Assembly (NCBI GenBank): GCA_001314865.1
Contig: LJZR01000002.1
Span: 186,001-250,000, forward strand
DNA from: Phormidesmis priestleyi Ana
Lineage (GTDB): Bacteria > Cyanobacteriota > Cyanobacteriia > Phormidesmidales > Phormidesmidaceae
Reading direction: 5' to 3'
DNA length: 64,000 nucleotides
Made by a program: the position numbers and the translations under genes
The notes under the pieces: generated by a model
Told to the model about the DNA's origin: nothing
Databases searched by the model: none
What the model saw: only the letters and a program-made list of their open reading frames with translations
In this document: positions 4,408 through 29,410 of the stretch, in pieces
Layout: each line of letters starts with the position of its first letter
How positions within the stretch are numbered: position 1 is the stretch's first letter

Positions 4408-4679
4408 GCCACCAAGATAGGTTTAAGAAAATCCTACTCAATAGAATGTGTGGTAGCGCATGAATCGTCAGCCAAGCGAAAGATAAGCTTAAATTTGGAC
4501 GGACTTTTGCCGTACAATCACTTAAGCGAAAAGCGTTGGATCAAGGTTATGCGGCCTAGAGAATCGGACGACTTTTATGCTTTTGCGAAAGTTTTTTAGC
4601 AGGCTCTTTTTAGCTAAGGTAGCTGAGATCTCCGCTCACAACTTTCGTTTCAAAAAGTTTATCTTAGGCGCTCTTTCTC

Positions 4680-6269
4680 ATGTCGATTGGTTATGTTGCA
4701 CTCGTTCTCCACGCTCATCTTCCATTCGTTCGCCATCCGGAAAGCGACTTTGTTTTAGAAGAAGAATGGCTATTTGAGGCCATTACCGAAACCTACGTGC
4801 CCTTACTCACCATGTTTGAAGGGCTCAAGCGGGACGGCATCGACTTTAAGATGACCATGAGCATGACGCCGCCACTGGTGGCGATGCTGCGAGATCCGCT
4901 GCTGCAAGAGCGCTACGACGTGCATCTCACTCAGCTAGAAGAGCTGCTAGAGATGGAGATAGAACGCAATGTTCACAACGGGCATCTCAAGTATTTAGCG
5001 GAATACTATGCGGGCGAATTTGCCCATGTGCGCAAGGTATGGGAGCACTACGGCGGCGACCTTACTAAGGGCTTTCGGAAGTTTTTAGAGAGCGGCAACC
5101 TCGACATCATGACCTGTGGGGCTACCCATGGCTACCTGCCGCTAATGAAGATGTATCCCGAAGCGGTATGGGCGCAAATTGAGGTTGCTTGCCAAAGCCA
5201 CGAGGAGAACTTTGGCCGCAGGCCGACTGGCATTTGGTTGCCAGAATGCGCCTACTACGAAGGGCTAGAGCGAATGCTGGCCGATGCCGGACTGCGTTAT
5301 TTCCTCACAGACGGGCATGGCATTTTGTATGCCCGTCCGCGTCCACGCTACGGCGCCTACTCGCCAATCTATACAGAGTCTGGCGTAGCTGCCTTTGGTC
5401 GTGACCAAGAATCTTCTCAGCAGGTGTGGTCTTCTAAGGTGGGCTATCCGGGCGCTTCAGAGTATCGCGAGTTCTATCGTGACCTGGGGTGGGATGCTGA
5501 GTATGAGTATATTAAGCCCTACATTATGCCGAACGGGCAGCGCAAAAATGTAGGTATTAAGTACCACAAAATTACGGGCAAATCGGTGGGTGGCTCTGAT
5601 AAGGCTTGGTACGACCCATACTGGGCCAGAGAAAAGGCGGCTGAACATGCAGGCAATTTTATGTTCAACCGGGAGCAGCAGGTTGGGAATTTATACAGCA
5701 TGATGCAGCGCAAGCCAATTGTGGTGTCGCCTTACGATGCGGAGCTGTATGGCCACTGGTGGTATGAAGGCCCCTGGTTTTTGGACTACTTTTTCCGTAA
5801 GAGCTGGCATGACCAAGGCACTTACGAAATGACTCATTTGGCCGATTATTTGCGGTCAAACCCAACGCAGCAAGTCGCCAGACCTTCTCAGTCAAGCTGG
5901 GGCTACAAAGGCTTTCATGAGTATTGGTTAAACGAAAAGAATGCGTGGATTTATCCCCATCTCCACAAGGCGACTGAGCGCATGATTGATCTGGCTAAGC
6001 GGGAGCCGGCTGATGAGTTGCAGTGGCGAGCGTTAAACCAGGCAGCGCGTGAGTTGCTGTTAGCACAGGCTTCGGACTGGGCTTTTATTATGCGGACTGG
6101 GACGATGGTGCCTTATGCGGTGAGAAGGACCCGGTCGCATTTGATGCGATTTAACAAGCTATGGGAAGACATTCGCGCTGAGCAAATAGATGCTGGCTGG
6201 CTAGAGAAAGTCGAAAAAATCGACAATATTTTCCCCAATGTGAACTATCGCACCTATCGCCCTTTGTAG
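4680..6269 (+). CDS. GH57 1,4-alpha-glucan branching enzyme
   Basis: 529 residues, close to the roughly 520-residue GH57 glycogen branching enzymes (Thermus/Thermococcus type). These transfer alpha-1,4 chains to alpha-1,6 positions during glycogen synthesis in the cytosol. GH57 motifs appear in order: HAHLPF near the N-terminus, CGATHGY around 141-147, WLPECAYY with Glu189 as the expected nucleophile, SPYDAELYGHWW with Asp353 as the expected acid/base, and a C-terminal helical domain containing WAFIMRTGT. The start is the ATG at 4680, directly before the family-typical opening GYVALVLHAHLPF. The gene is convergent with the Ycf46-like gene, with 27 bp between stops. GH57 family and catalytic residues are clear; branching rather than amylase specificity is inferred from length and motif pattern. 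Confidence 0.88.
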   Translation: MSIGYVALVLHAHLPFVRHPESDFVLEEEWLFEAITETYVPLLTMFEGLKRDGIDFKMTMSMTPPLVAMLRDPLLQERYDVHLTQLEELLEMEIERNVHNGHLKYLAEYYAGEFAHVRKVWEHYGGDLTKGFRKFLESGNLDIMTCGATHGYLPLMKMYPEAVWAQIEVACQSHEENFGRRPTGIWLPECAYYEGLERMLADAGLRYFLTDGHGILYARPRPRYGAYSPIYTESGVAAFGRDQESSQQVWSSKVGYPGASEYREFYRDLGWDAEYEYIKPYIMPNGQRKNVGIKYHKITGKSVGGSDKAWYDPYWAREKAAEHAGNFMFNREQQVGNLYSMMQRKPIVVSPYDAELYGHWWYEGPWFLDYFFRKSWHDQGTYEMTHLADYLRSNPTQQVARPSQSSWGYKGFHEYWLNEKNAWIYPHLHKATERMIDLAKREPADELQWRALNQAARELLLAQASDWAFIMRTGTMVPYAVRRTRSHLMRFNKLWEDIRAEQIDAGWLEKVEKIDNIFPNVNYRTYRPL

Positions 6270-13052: not shown

Positions 13053-13448
13053 TTACGATACGCCAATGGCGCCGCTGGCAACCTTGGCCTGGGGTGAAAT
13101 TTTACCGGTGATGTAGTCAAACATCTCGCGGAACTTAGGGACTGCGCGCATCTCAATGCGGCTGCCATCCTTTAGCGTGACGACCATGTCGCCCCAAGCG
13201 CCAAGCCCTCGGGGAACTGTGACGACCTTGGCAATTTCTTTATAGATGATATCGGTGCGATCGCGCCCCATCCATCCGCCCGTAATCGAAATTCGCCGGT
13301 CGGTAATGCGATAGCGTAGCCACAGCGCCCTTACCACAGCGCCTACGGTGAGCGGAATACAAATAATGGTAAACGCCAGTGCAATGTTAAAAATGAGCTC
13401 ACCAACGTGAGGGCCGCCTTCGTAGTAAACCTCTTCTTTAATCGCCAT
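13053..13448 (-). CDS. PH domain (DUF304-like) membrane protein
   Basis: 131 residues. Two hydrophobic stretches (about 15-45) precede a bacterial PH-like region with the typical YRITDRRISITGGWMGRDRTDIIYKEI pattern (split here by inference from about residue 50 to 76) and a second beta section (DMVVTLKDGSRIEMRAVP). Proteins of this type sit between rnpA and yidC in cyanobacteria. Its start overlaps the end of rnpA by 11 bp, which indicates translational coupling. Biochemical role unknown; membrane location is inferred. Confidence 0.8.
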   Translation of the reverse strand: MAIKEEVYYEGGPHVGELIFNIALAFTIICIPLTVGAVVRALWLRYRITDRRISITGGWMGRDRTDIIYKEIAKVVTVPRGLGAWGDMVVTLKDGSRIEMRAVPKFREMFDYITGKISPQAKVASGAIGVS

Positions 13449-22916: not shown

Positions 22917-24827
22917 CTAGGCTGCCTTAGAAAACTGAGGTGCCAAGGGCTCTATTCGCCGTCGCCGAGAAAGTGCTAATGAGGCTGCGACTATACCAAA
23001 CCCTAGCACCGCCGCAGGCTCAGGCACAGATTCAGCCTCATTGCCCTGCTGATTGGCCAGCTGAAGGTCAATTGGTAAAGCGACTGGCGGCGTAAACCGA
23101 GGCGGGGTCACCCCTTCGCTGCTAGCAGGCGGCTGAATAGTTGGTGTGGAGGCATCGGAACGAGCGATTACCTTGCTAAAGGCGGGTAGCGTGATCGTTG
23201 ACCCCCCTGCCACCAGATCTAAGACAATCTCAAGATCGTCGTCGCTCATGACTGTTGCCCAAGGATCGCCCACGAAGGTAAGTACTTCCCACAGTTTGCC
23301 AGCGGGTAAGTCTAGCAGCTCATCTATTTCAGTCGCGTTAATGGCTGAGATTGCGTCGCCATCAGTGTTTTCTACTCGCCAAGCGATAGAGGCATCGCCG
23401 CTGTGTAGCAAAGTCGCTGTACCTTCGGTAAAAACATCAGCACTTTTGCCCAGTACTAGGCCCGTCGCCGTTTTAGAAAAAGCCAGATCAGGGTCAGTCA
23501 CAAAGGGTAAGTCTTCAATGCCTCGGGTGCTCGGGTCAATGGCGATGCCTTTTTCGTTTACGATGGCTTGCCACTGAGCATTACCTGTGAGCATATGCGT
23601 GCAAGAGAGCTGCGTACGCGAGTCCTTCAAGAACTCATGCCCGTGCATATCTACCATGAGGGCACCGACCCAGGTGTTCCCTAGTACGACCACGTCCGAT
23701 TCAATAATGTTGTGCTCGGTGACCCAAATTTCTTTGTTTTGTACGCCTACTGAGTTAATCCCCGGATCAGCCAGTATGCTACGAAGTGTGCTCATGCCGC
23801 TGCGGGCAATTTCACCTGCCCTAGCCGGATCGGCGATCGCGGCATCCGCTTTGGTTAGGTTGAGGTCTGCGCCGTTGTAATAAGGATGAATCGTAAAGGC
23901 ATCGACTGCATCCATCGCGCTGCGACCGTCGGGGCCAATTGGCACCTGAAGCTCTGCCATCCAATTACTAATGCGAGGCGATGGATTATTGATATCGGCT
24001 GCGCCCGTAATGGCAATTTGAACACCTGGAATAGCCGCTCGGATGGTATCGGCCCACCGTTTGGCCTCTGCTGCATAGGCAGAAAATGTGAGCGGCCCAT
24101 TGGCAGGTTGATTGGGTGTTGGGTAGCCGCCGACCTGTGGCAACAAACTATCGTCTTTGTCCTCTCGTTCGTAGTTACCCACCTCATTGCTGGGTGTGTT
24201 GAATCCACCTCTAAAATAGAGTTCATTACCGAGCTCTACGCGTGATATCGGTATGCCTTTTGCCATAGCCTGCTGCAAATGGGCAAGCTCTTTTTCTAAA
24301 AAAGAGGTGTTCATATTCATCTCCCAAACGGCCTCTGCATTAGCTGCTGTCACAAAGGTTTTGACATTTTTTATCGTGGCGTTGGTGGTGTATTGATACC
24401 TAACGCTATCGGGCAAATTTTGAGGTAAAAAGAATGGAAAGATATTAGGCCGACGCGTATTGAAAACTGGACTGTTTGGAATAGAGAAATCGTGCCAGGA
24501 AACAATTCCACCTGCGTTGCCATAATCGGTCTCTTCAAGGTTACCAGCACTATTGACAAAGGTATGATTTCCCCATGTCCAATAGTTAGCGGTGTCGCCA
24601 CCGGGTAGCCGCAGTGACTGGCCGCCAACAGACTTTGCTGCCTGTCCAAATGCAGATAGATCAATATTGTTCCAATTTTCGACAGCAACTGCGTCAGTGT
24701 TGTAGCAGCTGTAGTTGTTGGGTATGGCACGGATTGTTTGGGCACTGGCGGCTTCTTGCAGCGTCATACTAGCCGCGAGCATACCTGCGCAAATTCTGTA
24801 AGAGTGGCGAAGGGTCGTCACAGTCAT
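22917..24827 (-). CDS. PEP-CTERM protein with a GH clan-A-like catalytic domain
   Basis: 636 residues. N-terminal signal peptide (about 1-29, ending AASAQ). The central region (about 35-470) looks like a TIM-barrel glycosidase of clan GH-A: SLRLPGGDTANYW near 71-83, RVELGNELYF with Glu202 after Asn (usual acid/base position), FTIHPYYNG (311-319) and KEIWVTEHN with Glu371 (usual nucleophile position). This resembles GH39/51/79-type enzymes, but the exact family is not assigned. A beta-rich domain follows (about 470-560). The C-terminus is a textbook PEP-CTERM tag: VPEP (601-604), a short transmembrane helix and RRRR (622-625), normally cleaved by an exosortase. It is probably an exported enzyme or binding protein acting on surface polysaccharide. 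Confidence 0.8.
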   Translation of the reverse strand: MTVTTLRHSYRICAGMLAASMTLQEAASAQTIRAIPNNYSCYNTDAVAVENWNNIDLSAFGQAAKSVGGQSLRLPGGDTANYWTWGNHTFVNSAGNLEETDYGNAGGIVSWHDFSIPNSPVFNTRRPNIFPFFLPQNLPDSVRYQYTTNATIKNVKTFVTAANAEAVWEMNMNTSFLEKELAHLQQAMAKGIPISRVELGNELYFRGGFNTPSNEVGNYEREDKDDSLLPQVGGYPTPNQPANGPLTFSAYAAEAKRWADTIRAAIPGVQIAITGAADINNPSPRISNWMAELQVPIGPDGRSAMDAVDAFTIHPYYNGADLNLTKADAAIADPARAGEIARSGMSTLRSILADPGINSVGVQNKEIWVTEHNIIESDVVVLGNTWVGALMVDMHGHEFLKDSRTQLSCTHMLTGNAQWQAIVNEKGIAIDPSTRGIEDLPFVTDPDLAFSKTATGLVLGKSADVFTEGTATLLHSGDASIAWRVENTDGDAISAINATEIDELLDLPAGKLWEVLTFVGDPWATVMSDDDLEIVLDLVAGGSTITLPAFSKVIARSDASTPTIQPPASSEGVTPPRFTPPVALPIDLQLANQQGNEAESVPEPAAVLGFGIVAASLALSRRRRIEPLAPQFSKAA

Positions 24828-25421: not shown

Positions 25422-25829
25422 TTACAGCAACTGACGCATTGCCAGCCAGTCTTCAGACTTCACCAGCCATGGCGCTACGGCGACTTTTATGGTGATGCCA
25501 GCATTGTCGATATAAATTCGACGGCTGTCTGCTTTTACAACATCCCAAGATTCAAAGCTATAGCGCTTGGTCACTGTGCCGAGCAGATTGTATACCGTGA
25601 GCTGACGGGGCTCTAGTAAAAAGTAAGGGCGCTTGAGGCAGTAAATGCCAAAGGCTAGAACAGACACAAACAACAGCGCGCCTAACAAGGCTTGCGCTGC
25701 CATGCTTTGAGTGTTAAAAGCGAGCCAAAGGCTTATTAAGAAGCCGGTGCCGCCGCCCACCAGGAAAAAGAGACCCGGTGTAATTTTGTAGTAGGCCGTC
25801 AAACAAGTTTTAACGCGGTTGGATTGCAT
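25422..25829 (-). CDS. Small membrane protein with a PH-like C-terminus
   Basis: 135 residues. Two hydrophobic helices (about 17-37 and 42-62) are followed by a short beta-rich segment (YFLLEPRQLTVYNLLGTVTKRY...SRRIYIDNAGITIKV) that resembles the PH-like fold of small bacterial membrane proteins. No catalytic residues are seen. It lies between the pseudokinase-VanY gene and the PEP-CTERM gene on the same strand, but the gaps are too large to argue for an operon. Function unknown. Confidence 0.6.
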   Translation of the reverse strand: MQSNRVKTCLTAYYKITPGLFFLVGGGTGFLISLWLAFNTQSMAAQALLGALLFVSVLAFGIYCLKRPYFLLEPRQLTVYNLLGTVTKRYSFESWDVVKADSRRIYIDNAGITIKVAVAPWLVKSEDWLAMRQLL

Positions 25830-26079: not shown

Positions 26080-27615
26080 CTATAGACCAAACACCTTTTG
26101 GCTGGCTTCGTCGCCTACGTATCGCCAGTGCCAGGGCTCGCTAAAAAAGCTGCCTAGTTGCCTGTCTTTTTCTAGGGACAGTTCAAATCCGTACTGCTGA
26201 GCATTTTGCCTGAGCCATTTAAATTCCTCGGAGTTAGCAAATTCTCGCTGCTGATCTTGCTCGGTTTTTTGGCCACCAATGTCAAGGGCGTAGCCGGTTT
26301 TATAGTCAGTGTTGGCGTTGTTTTCCTGACTGTGGCCTGCCAGTGGAAATAGCTGAATGTCTTCAGCCATGGCCGCAGCGAACATTTGCCAAAAGGCGTT
26401 TGCGGCGGCGGGCTGGAGCAAAATGCTGCCGTCTGCGAGTAAGGGGACTAAGTCTTTGGGATCAGCCGTTGTGTAGGTGCGGTTGGGTAGTCGGAATCGC
26501 TGAAAGCTAGTAGGAAACTGGCTAAGGCGATATTCGCCCCATTGATAGGTTTTAACCCCTATGCCCAAGGCGAGGACGGTCGCCAAGCTGCCGATCATTA
26601 GCTTGGGTAGGTATGGGTTGGCTAGTTGTCCAGCATTTCGGCTGGTTGGCCTGGCTTTAGCTAGGCCGGTTTTAGAGATGCCATCGGTGGTGAGCGTGGT
26701 CCCTGTTTTTTGTCTAGGTGCAGCGACGACTGTCGGTATGCGGCTGTCGTTGGCTACTCGGGTGCGATCGCTTTGTACTTTAAAGGTTTCTAGGGCTTCT
26801 TTGGCATTGGGGAAGCGATCGCGCCAGTCCTGCCGTACGAGCCGATCAATAAACTCACCCAAATGAATACTCACCTGTGCTTGGTCTCGCCACTTCAAGC
26901 CGACCTGCGCTTCGTATGCAAAGTTATGGTGGCGCTGCCCGGTGAGCGCTTCAATGGCAATGAGGCCAAGCGCATACAGATCCGTCGCGGGTGGCGCTTT
27001 AAACGAGCCGTGGGATAAAGCTTTAAGCTGTTCGGGCGCGCTATAAGCTGAAGGGCCAACGGGAATAGAACTGCCCAAACTACCATCTGTGGCGACTTTG
27101 CTCCTGGCTATTTTAGAGAGTTCTCCAAACTGGGTGACAAATATTTGGCCATCTCTCGCTTCGCGAATCAGGTGCTGGGGATGCAGGTTTTGATGCACGA
27201 GCCCTTGTTCATGTGCAAATGTCAGGGCGATGAGGACATCTTTAATCAGTTTATTGACATAGCTTTCGCTAAGCAGTTTGGGCGGTTTAATTTCTTCGCT
27301 GAGCGGATGGCCCGCAATATAGTCCTGAATAAGATAAAAAGTGCCTAGCGGTTCGGTTTCCTCTGCTGAGGTGTTTGCTTGGTGAAAAAAGGCCAAGACT
27401 CTTGGAATTTGAGGATGACGGCCTAAACGCTCTAGCAGCTGCGCTTCGCGCTCTAGGCGATGGCGAATTTCGCGCTGATGGTACGGAATGGCTGTGACAA
27501 GGCAGTGGGGCCGATGGGTGTAGCGGCGATCGCACCCCAAATACACTGTGCTGAAGTCGGTACAGCTCAGCTGCGATTCGATCTCAAAGCGGTTTTCAAG
27601 AATCTGAGTAGGCAT
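26080..27615 (-). CDS. Pseudokinase-transmembrane-VanY-like fusion, both domains degenerate
   Basis: 511 residues from the ATG at 27615 (PTQILENRFEIESQL); an upstream in-frame TTG adds 25 residues and is less likely. Residues about 5-285 have the Ser/Thr kinase fold, but the glycine loop reads SCTDFSTVY, the VAIK position reads VTAIP, HRDLKPxN reads HQNLHPQHL (141-149) and DFG reads QFG (162-164). The SAPEQ segment is kept. After a Ser/Thr-rich linker, a single transmembrane helix (about 338-355) leads to a VanY/M15-type D-Ala-D-Ala peptidase region (about 390-511). EPWHWRYVG (493-501) is kept, but the SxHxxGxAxD zinc motif reads TDYKTGYALD with no His. It may be a peptidoglycan-sensing or scaffold protein; loss of activity is inferred. 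Confidence 0.8.
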   Translation of the reverse strand: MPTQILENRFEIESQLSCTDFSTVYLGCDRRYTHRPHCLVTAIPYHQREIRHRLEREAQLLERLGRHPQIPRVLAFFHQANTSAEETEPLGTFYLIQDYIAGHPLSEEIKPPKLLSESYVNKLIKDVLIALTFAHEQGLVHQNLHPQHLIREARDGQIFVTQFGELSKIARSKVATDGSLGSSIPVGPSAYSAPEQLKALSHGSFKAPPATDLYALGLIAIEALTGQRHHNFAYEAQVGLKWRDQAQVSIHLGEFIDRLVRQDWRDRFPNAKEALETFKVQSDRTRVANDSRIPTVVAAPRQKTGTTLTTDGISKTGLAKARPTSRNAGQLANPYLPKLMIGSLATVLALGIGVKTYQWGEYRLSQFPTSFQRFRLPNRTYTTADPKDLVPLLADGSILLQPAAANAFWQMFAAAMAEDIQLFPLAGHSQENNANTDYKTGYALDIGGQKTEQDQQREFANSEEFKWLRQNAQQYGFELSLEKDRQLGSFFSEPWHWRYVGDEASQKVFGL

Positions 27616-28378: not shown

Positions 28379-29410
28379 ATGTTTAGCCCTCAACACAGTT
28401 CCGCATCTGAAACATCTAGCAAAGCTAGCTTTAGCGCCGCCGTCTTGGACTCAATGGGTACGATTCAGCTAACAAAAACATTTACGGTGGTCGAGGCAGT
28501 CGCCTTCAAGCGGAGTTGTCAGGAAGCCTTTTTAAAGCATCCAGGACTGGAAGAAGTTGTCCTAAATTTTGCAGATACGATGTTCATTGACAGCAGCGGT
28601 CTTGGTGCGCTGGTGATTTGCCATCGAATTTGTGAGTCTAAAGGGGCGAAGCTGAGACTCATTAATGTGCCGTCGCAAGTGATGATGGCGCTTTCTTTGA
28701 CGGAATTGGATAAGGTTTTTCATATTGAGCGGGCACTGGCTAGTTCGTCTGCTGAACGGCCGAATCATTTAAAGGCGGCACTGGAAAATTTGCCAGAAAC
28801 TCACCCGTCAGTGCGCTCTAAGACAAAACGGTTAATTGATATTGTCGGTGCGCTGGTGGGGTTAGGCTTGACGACGGTTGTGTATGGGGTGGTTGCGATC
28901 GCTGTCAAACTCGAAGACGGCGGCCCCATTTTCTTTAGTCAAACCCGCTGTTCTTGGTTGGGCCAACCCTTCACCATTTGGAAGTTTCGCTCTATGGTGA
29001 TTGACGCTGAAGCCCGCAAGCAGGAAGTGGCTAATAAAATAGAAGGTGCTTTCTTTAAAAACGACAACGATCCGCGCATTACTAGAGTGGGGCGGTTTTT
29101 GCGGCGTACCAGCCTAGATGAGTTTCCTCAGTTCTGGAATGTGCTCAAAGGCGACATGAGCCTGGTTGGCACGCGCCCTCCAACGCTGGATGAACTCGCC
29201 CAGTATAAGGTCTCTGAATGGCAGCGGCTTAACGTAAAGCCGGGGATGACTGGTGAGTGGCAGGTGAATGGACGCTCAAGCATTACTTCTTTTGAGCAGG
29301 TGGTTCAGTTAGATTTGCAATATCAGCGCAAGTGGAGCTTGGCGTACGATATGCAGCTGATTCTTAAGACGGTTGGGGTGCTATTTACCAAAAAATCGGG
29401 CGCTGTGTAA
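28379..29410 (+). CDS. STAS domain-sugar transferase fusion (polysaccharide priming enzyme)
   Basis: 343 residues. Residues about 26-125 form a STAS domain of the anti-sigma-antagonist (RsbV/SpoIIAA) type, with the phospho-acceptor motif FIDSSGLGAL (69-78). Residues about 148-343 are a bacterial sugar transferase (polyprenyl-phosphate hexose-1-P transferase, WbaP/WcaJ catalytic part): KRLIDIVGALVGL membrane helix, GGPIFFSQTR, FTIWKFRSM, DPRITRVGRFLRRTSLDEFPQ (in parts), NVLKGDMSLVGTRPP and VKPGMTGEWQVNGRSS. The transferase adds the first sugar phosphate to the lipid carrier on the cytosolic face. The fusion suggests control of priming by a kinase/phosphatase partner switch; this is inference. 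It opens the polysaccharide region. Confidence 0.9.
   Translation: MFSPQHSSASETSSKASFSAAVLDSMGTIQLTKTFTVVEAVAFKRSCQEAFLKHPGLEEVVLNFADTMFIDSSGLGALVICHRICESKGAKLRLINVPSQVMMALSLTELDKVFHIERALASSSAERPNHLKAALENLPETHPSVRSKTKRLIDIVGALVGLGLTTVVYGVVAIAVKLEDGGPIFFSQTRCSWLGQPFTIWKFRSMVIDAEARKQEVANKIEGAFFKNDNDPRITRVGRFLRRTSLDEFPQFWNVLKGDMSLVGTRPPTLDELAQYKVSEWQRLNVKPGMTGEWQVNGRSSITSFEQVVQLDLQYQRKWSLAYDMQLILKTVGVLFTKKSGAV

Follow-up and report, generated by a model that had tools for sequence, protein, structure and literature searches.

A membrane fusion of a pseudokinase and a pseudo-VanY domain in Phormidesmis-like cyanobacteria with putative loss of catalysis in both halves

Bacterial pseudokinases have been little studied, and certain kinases without canonical catalytic residues are able to retain activity. 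MviN of Mycobacterium tuberculosis is a pseudokinase scaffold in cell-wall control whose phosphorylated tail recruits the FHA protein FhaA (PMC12599244, PMC3601408), and EssB/YukC provides a further precedent for a membrane pseudokinase (PMC12599244). PASTA kinases (PknB, PrkC, Stk1) consist of an N-terminal Hanks-type kinase, one membrane helix and an outside sensor domain, and represent a precedent for Ser/Thr kinases that sense muropeptides (PMC3601408). In the M15B carboxypeptidase LdcB, zinc is bound by His153, Asp160 and His207, and the peptide carboxylate is held by Arg120 (PMC4087270). A literature search for kinase-VanY fusions in cyanobacteria found none. A review of bacterial pseudokinases mentions neither VanY nor peptidases and contains no peptidase-joined family (PMC12599244), and a 2007 survey of cyanobacterial kinases, which set aside proteins without catalytic domains, does not mention VanY (PMC2176072).

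The gene described here lies in a window of 64,000 nucleotides from Phormidesmis priestleyi Ana (contig LJZR01000002.1, positions 186,001 to 250,000). It encodes a pseudokinase - transmembrane - pseudo-VanY fusion of 511 amino acids at 26080..27615 on the minus strand, to which all coordinates of protein features below also refer, and its frame runs uninterrupted from the ATG at 27615 to a stop codon at 26080-26082. Orthologues share the start position of the window ORF. The pseudokinase domain spans residues 6-280 (26776..27600) and matches Pfam Pkinase (PF00069) at 1.8e-19 over residues 20-275, while the pseudo-VanY/LdcB (M15) domain spans residues 385-511 (26083..26463) and matches VanY (PF02557) at 3.5e-17 over residues 438-502, with 62.9 bits against a cut-off of 25; a Pfam search found no other domain in the protein. 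A single transmembrane helix is predicted at about residues 336-354 (26554..26610), so that the membrane helix and open frame proposed in an earlier sequence-only reading both hold. From the N-terminal position of the kinase and the single hydrophobic segment found, a cytoplasmic kinase and a periplasmic VanY half are expected, although the flanking charge pattern is not decisive.

Structure prediction recovered the kinase fold and gave an LdcB-like outside half. In the full-length AlphaFold2 model (mean pLDDT 75), the kinase mostly reaches about 90 and the linker between the two halves is of low confidence (pLDDT < 50). The kinase model matches the kinase domains of PknB, PknA and Stk1, PknB and Stk1 being the best structural matches in Foldseek (E 9e-16). 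A separate model of the C-terminal half (pLDDT 71) matches LdcB (4mph, 1.9e-8) with weaker matches to VanY, VanXY and Hedgehog; TM-scores near 0.5 and an rmsd of 7.6 mean that this half is modelled only roughly. A family profile compared with the LdcB structures 4ox3/4mph gave 2e-17, and by both profile and fold the outside half belongs to the M15B VanY/LdcB group, with LdcB/YodJ/VanY as its closest relatives in sequence and fold. The Hedgehog N-terminal domain (weak Foldseek matches, E 0.06-0.6) likewise reuses an M15-like peptidase fold for binding, however, its biology is unrelated and the likeness is a structural analogy only.

The kinase half combines a recognizable kinase fold with degraded catalytic motifs, the combination that characterizes bacterial Ser/Thr pseudokinases. 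Alignment of the fusions shows that the glycine loop has degenerated to LSCTDFSTVY, which contains no glycine (residues 16-25, 27541..27570). Residue-by-residue alignment places Thr41 at the VAIK lysine (27493..27495), HQN at HRD (residues 141-143, 27187..27195; Asp to Asn143) and QFG at DFG (residues 162-164, 27124..27132; Asp to Gln162). All four absences had been claimed beforehand and each was confirmed, and the three residues expected of an active Hanks-type Ser/Thr kinase are missing, which suggests loss of activity in the window protein. Within the genus all three catalytic residues are gone from the fusions, the sole exception being a Lys in L006, and positions 41, 143 and 162 vary freely (TTITKM, NNYNNQ and QEHQEY) without any single replacement. 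The structural kinase residues APE Glu, Asp212 and Arg267 are invariant across the genus.

The protein falls into none of the three narrower kinase classes with which it was compared. Like MviN/MurJ (ActPs3), its nearest precedent in function, it is a membrane-bound bacterial Ser/Thr pseudokinase with a possible cell-wall link and a possible role as a docking scaffold. However, MviN is part of an actinobacterial peptidoglycan-synthesis membrane protein that carries a carbohydrate-binding domain and activation-loop deletions, whereas the present pseudokinase is cyanobacterial and has an M15 domain as its partner. Where ActPs3 has Lsidhpsr at the HRD position, the window protein reads VHQNLHPQHL; its activation segment contains APE and its relatives are exclusively cyanobacterial. 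The CP1 pseudokinases have no transmembrane helix and are linked to COG3899 (PMC12599244), whereas the fusion has one helix and a VanY domain. The overall layout resembles that of PASTA kinases, but the outside domain is an M15 pseudopeptidase instead of PASTA repeats, which are absent from the window protein, and the kinase appears inactive; the NCBIfam PASTA-kinase model reaches 74.6 bits against a cut-off of 450.

Degeneration of the VanY half affects the zinc site and the substrate side. In place of the zinc motif with its histidine the protein has TDYKTGYALD (residues 436-445, 26281..26310), in which the first ligand has become Tyr438 and Asp445 is kept, with ligands assigned from LdcB (PMC4087270). 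The EPWHW motif (residues 493-497, 26125..26139) retains Glu493 and the third zinc ligand His496. Both motifs had been described correctly from the sequence, and the His-Asp-His triad is thus replaced by Tyr438/Asp445/His496. The first ligand is Tyr in all 15 aligned fusions, whereas 29/29 stand-alone cyanobacterial VanY proteins keep His (SEHHTG). An active-site His-to-Tyr exchange also occurs in the cyanobacterial pseudo-orthocaspases, which are likewise conserved pseudopeptidase families but differ in fold and architecture (PMC6426788). The segment between the conserved Gly-aromatic turn and the zinc motif comprises 11 residues in the window protein compared with 36-37 in 29/29 stand-alone cyanobacterial VanY and 28-30 in the Leptothoe-type fusions. 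With this shortening by about 26 residues (at residues 427-437, 26305..26337), both the substrate-side segment and the Arg120 equivalent are lost; the segment is low-complexity or shortened across most of the genus, and the arginine is gone from most fusions. Thus, compared with LdcB/YodJ/VanY carboxypeptidases, the window protein has Tyr for the zinc His, has lost the Arg and the substrate-side segment, and is joined to a kinase. The earlier statement that both folds are otherwise well preserved stands in part: both are recognized, but the VanY half lacks the segment with the residue that would hold the substrate carboxylate. The same genome encodes two stand-alone VanY proteins with intact zinc sites elsewhere.

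The fusion is carried by 7/7 genomes of the Phormidesmis-like genus, the seventh being read from two contigs, and, within the same family, by a further nine genomes. Named carriers are Phormidesmis priestleyi ULC027, cf. Phormidesmis LEGE 11477, Leptolyngbya SIO4C1, PCC 7375 and Heron Island J, Adonisia turfae, Leptothoe kymatousa, Leptolyngbya cf. ectocarpi and Phormidium FACHB-1136. A class-wide search of 390 genomes returned no fusion outside this family among the matches listed. The scan that yielded the named carriers covered 84,980 prokaryote genomes but used patterns from this fusion family, and intact-zinc kinase-M15 fusions may thus exist elsewhere. No match in a plasmid record reaches 80% coverage of the protein, which speaks against a plasmid origin. 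On the Phormidium FACHB-1136 contig (L101:2191-3765 and 4654-6228), the fusion stands in tandem with another Ser/Thr kinase gene, whose motifs are intact and whose C-terminus differs.

The two halves differ in history, as judged from an alignment of 15 full-length fusions of this one cyanobacterial family. Lys, HRD and DFG of the kinase are intact in L011, L012, L014 and L016, and L010 keeps Lys and both aspartates; these five intact or nearly intact relatives make up most of the Leptothoe/PCC 7375 group plus Phormidium FACHB-1136. Both kinase aspartates have been lost in 7/7 genomes of the genus and in G009 and G011, while the DFG Asp was lost separately in L015 (GFG, with Lys to Gln) and L013 (NFG). 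After masking of HRD and DFG, a kinase tree groups the fusion kinases in a single clade (support 100/99); on this tree the DFG Asp requires four changes and the HRD Asp two, compared with three and one on an alternative topology. The DFG Asp thus appears to have been lost at least 3-4 times. Fusion VanY domains are split from stand-alone VanY with support of 100/99 in a tree used only for this split, which includes one badly extracted row (L075). Because the zinc His is gone in every fusion and the kinase is intact in several, the outside half appears to have been a pseudopeptidase by the time of the common ancestor of today's fusions at the latest, with kinase catalysis going later and repeatedly. 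Accordingly, the proposal that both active sites are degraded is right for the whole genus but needs amendment in that the zinc His was lost family-wide and kinase function several times afterwards. The fusion is a membrane pseudokinase notable for an apparent double loss of catalysis with a readable order of events. One small family holds apparently living and dead kinases on a single receptor architecture, and the order of losses can be read from living species. This makes it possible to ask a general and testable question, namely what role a receptor kinase retains once catalysis is lost and what permits that loss.

Purifying selection acts on both halves. For the pair G001 and G002, two species with degeneration in the kinase as well as the VanY half, dN/dS is 0.151/1.35 (~0.11) for the kinase half and 0.137/1.30 (~0.11) for the VanY half; dS is near saturation and the ratios are therefore approximate, yet far below 1. 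The fusion frames are open in 7/7 genus genomes at a protein identity of 50-60%. Low dN/dS together with invariant structural residues and freely varying catalytic positions suggests that selection keeps the fold without catalysis and argues against decay, which the sequence-only reading had likewise thought less likely than selection. In 7/7 genus genomes the fusion lacks both kinase aspartates (HRD, DFG) as well as the first zinc His, and a search for close orthologues with these residues intact found none. Together with dN/dS of about 0.1, these shared losses rule out a strain-specific degenerate copy.

We consider it probable, though well short of certain, that a receptor kinase whose sensor was non-catalytic has turned into a purely non-catalytic membrane scaffold or binding protein. 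The ancestor would have been a Ser/Thr receptor kinase that had recruited an M15 peptidase as its outside domain, the first zinc ligand of which was by then missing. Phormidium FACHB-1136 and most Leptothoe/PCC 7375-type relatives probably still have it as a working receptor kinase, and the intact members probably function like PASTA kinases. In the Phormidesmis-like lineage kinase output would have been discarded, leaving function by binding alone; the scaffold role is what we infer from this. Ligand and partners are a matter of guesswork: the outside domain may bind a periplasmic ligand or partner, and the pseudokinase and a juxtamembrane motif may dock signalling partners, among them perhaps the membrane protein whose gene lies downstream. 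This motif, DSRIPTVVAA in the window protein (residues 290-299, 26719..26748), is recognizable in 14/15 fusions as DS[RKQ]LPTxVAA (mostly DSRLPTxVAA), whether the kinase is intact or dead. Its conservation is 0.67 compared with 0.26 in the remaining, otherwise variable linker, making it a candidate docking or phosphorylation site. A more specific form of this reading can be offered tentatively: the fusion would be a receptor that signals without catalysis on either side of the membrane, in which loss of the zinc site was followed by several independent losses of kinase output and the signal is read by docking partners through the DSRLPT motif and the downstream protein.

The sequence-only reading had proposed a peptidoglycan sensor, in which stem peptides (muropeptides) would be bound but not cleaved by the outside domain, with the pseudokinase passing on the signal. 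Descent of the outside domain from LdcB/VanY stem-peptide peptidases, the precedent of the PASTA kinases, the conserved EPWHW and the second zinc-ligand Asp kept in the genus are all consistent with such a role. However, the residues by which LdcB holds stem peptides are largely gone, with the zinc His missing from all members, the Arg120 equivalent from most, including the window protein, and the substrate-side segment cut down here and degraded in most of the genus, so that muropeptide binding in the manner of LdcB is unlikely, though another ligand or mode is possible. Further, no wall-synthesis gene was recognized among the conserved neighbours of the fusion. A peptidoglycan sensor is thus possible but not specifically supported, and we regard it as unlikely, if worth keeping in mind.

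Anchoring alone, with the outside domain as a localization tag that binds the sacculus or a periplasmic protein, and the pseudokinase as a passive adaptor that senses nothing, is rather unlikely as well. It would fit the repeated loss of kinase output from a retained architecture and the conserved segment YQWxxYRLS after the helix, but the intact kinase of several relatives indicates that the ancestor signalled. It is improbable that the protein is altered instead of inactive, whether through a new way of binding metal or a non-canonical pseudokinase reaction. The invariance of Tyr438, together with retention of Asp445 and His496 in nearly all of the genus, raises the possibility that selection, not decay, put Tyr at this position, and Tyr438/Asp445/His496 could hold a metal in the Phormidesmis lineage. 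On the other hand, Asp445 is Ala or Val in 8 fusion members, His496 is Gln in L003 and Arg in L016, and the absence of both a glycine loop and any consistent replacement at positions 41, 143 and 162 is hard to reconcile with a new kinase reaction. That a once-functional receptor kinase is simply decaying in this lineage is very improbable and already largely refuted, since free variation of catalytic residues, a fast-evolving linker and deletions in the VanY half stand against the low dN/dS in both halves, the open frames and the invariant structural residues.

If the preferred reading of a non-catalytic membrane scaffold is correct, a candidate partner is encoded directly downstream. The co-directional gene at 25422..25829 (minus strand) encodes a 135-aa membrane protein with a hydrophobic N-terminal half and a highly conserved C-terminal region of about 70 aa, for which no Pfam or NCBIfam family was found. 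It adjoins the fusion in 6/7 genus genomes, with the remaining neighbourhood differing. The homologue in G005 is not adjacent, and the downstream gene there reads, by eye, as glycerol-3-phosphate dehydrogenase. Outside the genus the gene is absent, two weak matches apart, and it may thus be a partner that the pseudokinase-bearing lineage gained; for the same reason, and given its position in G005, it cannot explain the whole fusion family. A paralogue adjoins a sensor histidine kinase in 7/7 genus genomes. By eye the protein had been considered a bacterial PH-domain protein, an assignment that was dropped because hhalign against bPH_2 proteins gave it no support (probability 0.2%). The window does encode a conserved cyanobacterial bPH_2 (PF03703) membrane protein at 13053-13448 (minus strand), which profile comparison shows to be unrelated to the downstream protein. 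Two further genes near the fusion were read by eye: one at 28379-29410 (plus strand) encodes a fusion of an N-terminal STAS (anti-sigma antagonist-like) domain with an exopolysaccharide-type sugar transferase, and one at 22917-24827 (minus strand) a secreted protein that resembles glycosyl hydrolases and carries a PEP-CTERM-type sorting signal at its C-terminus.
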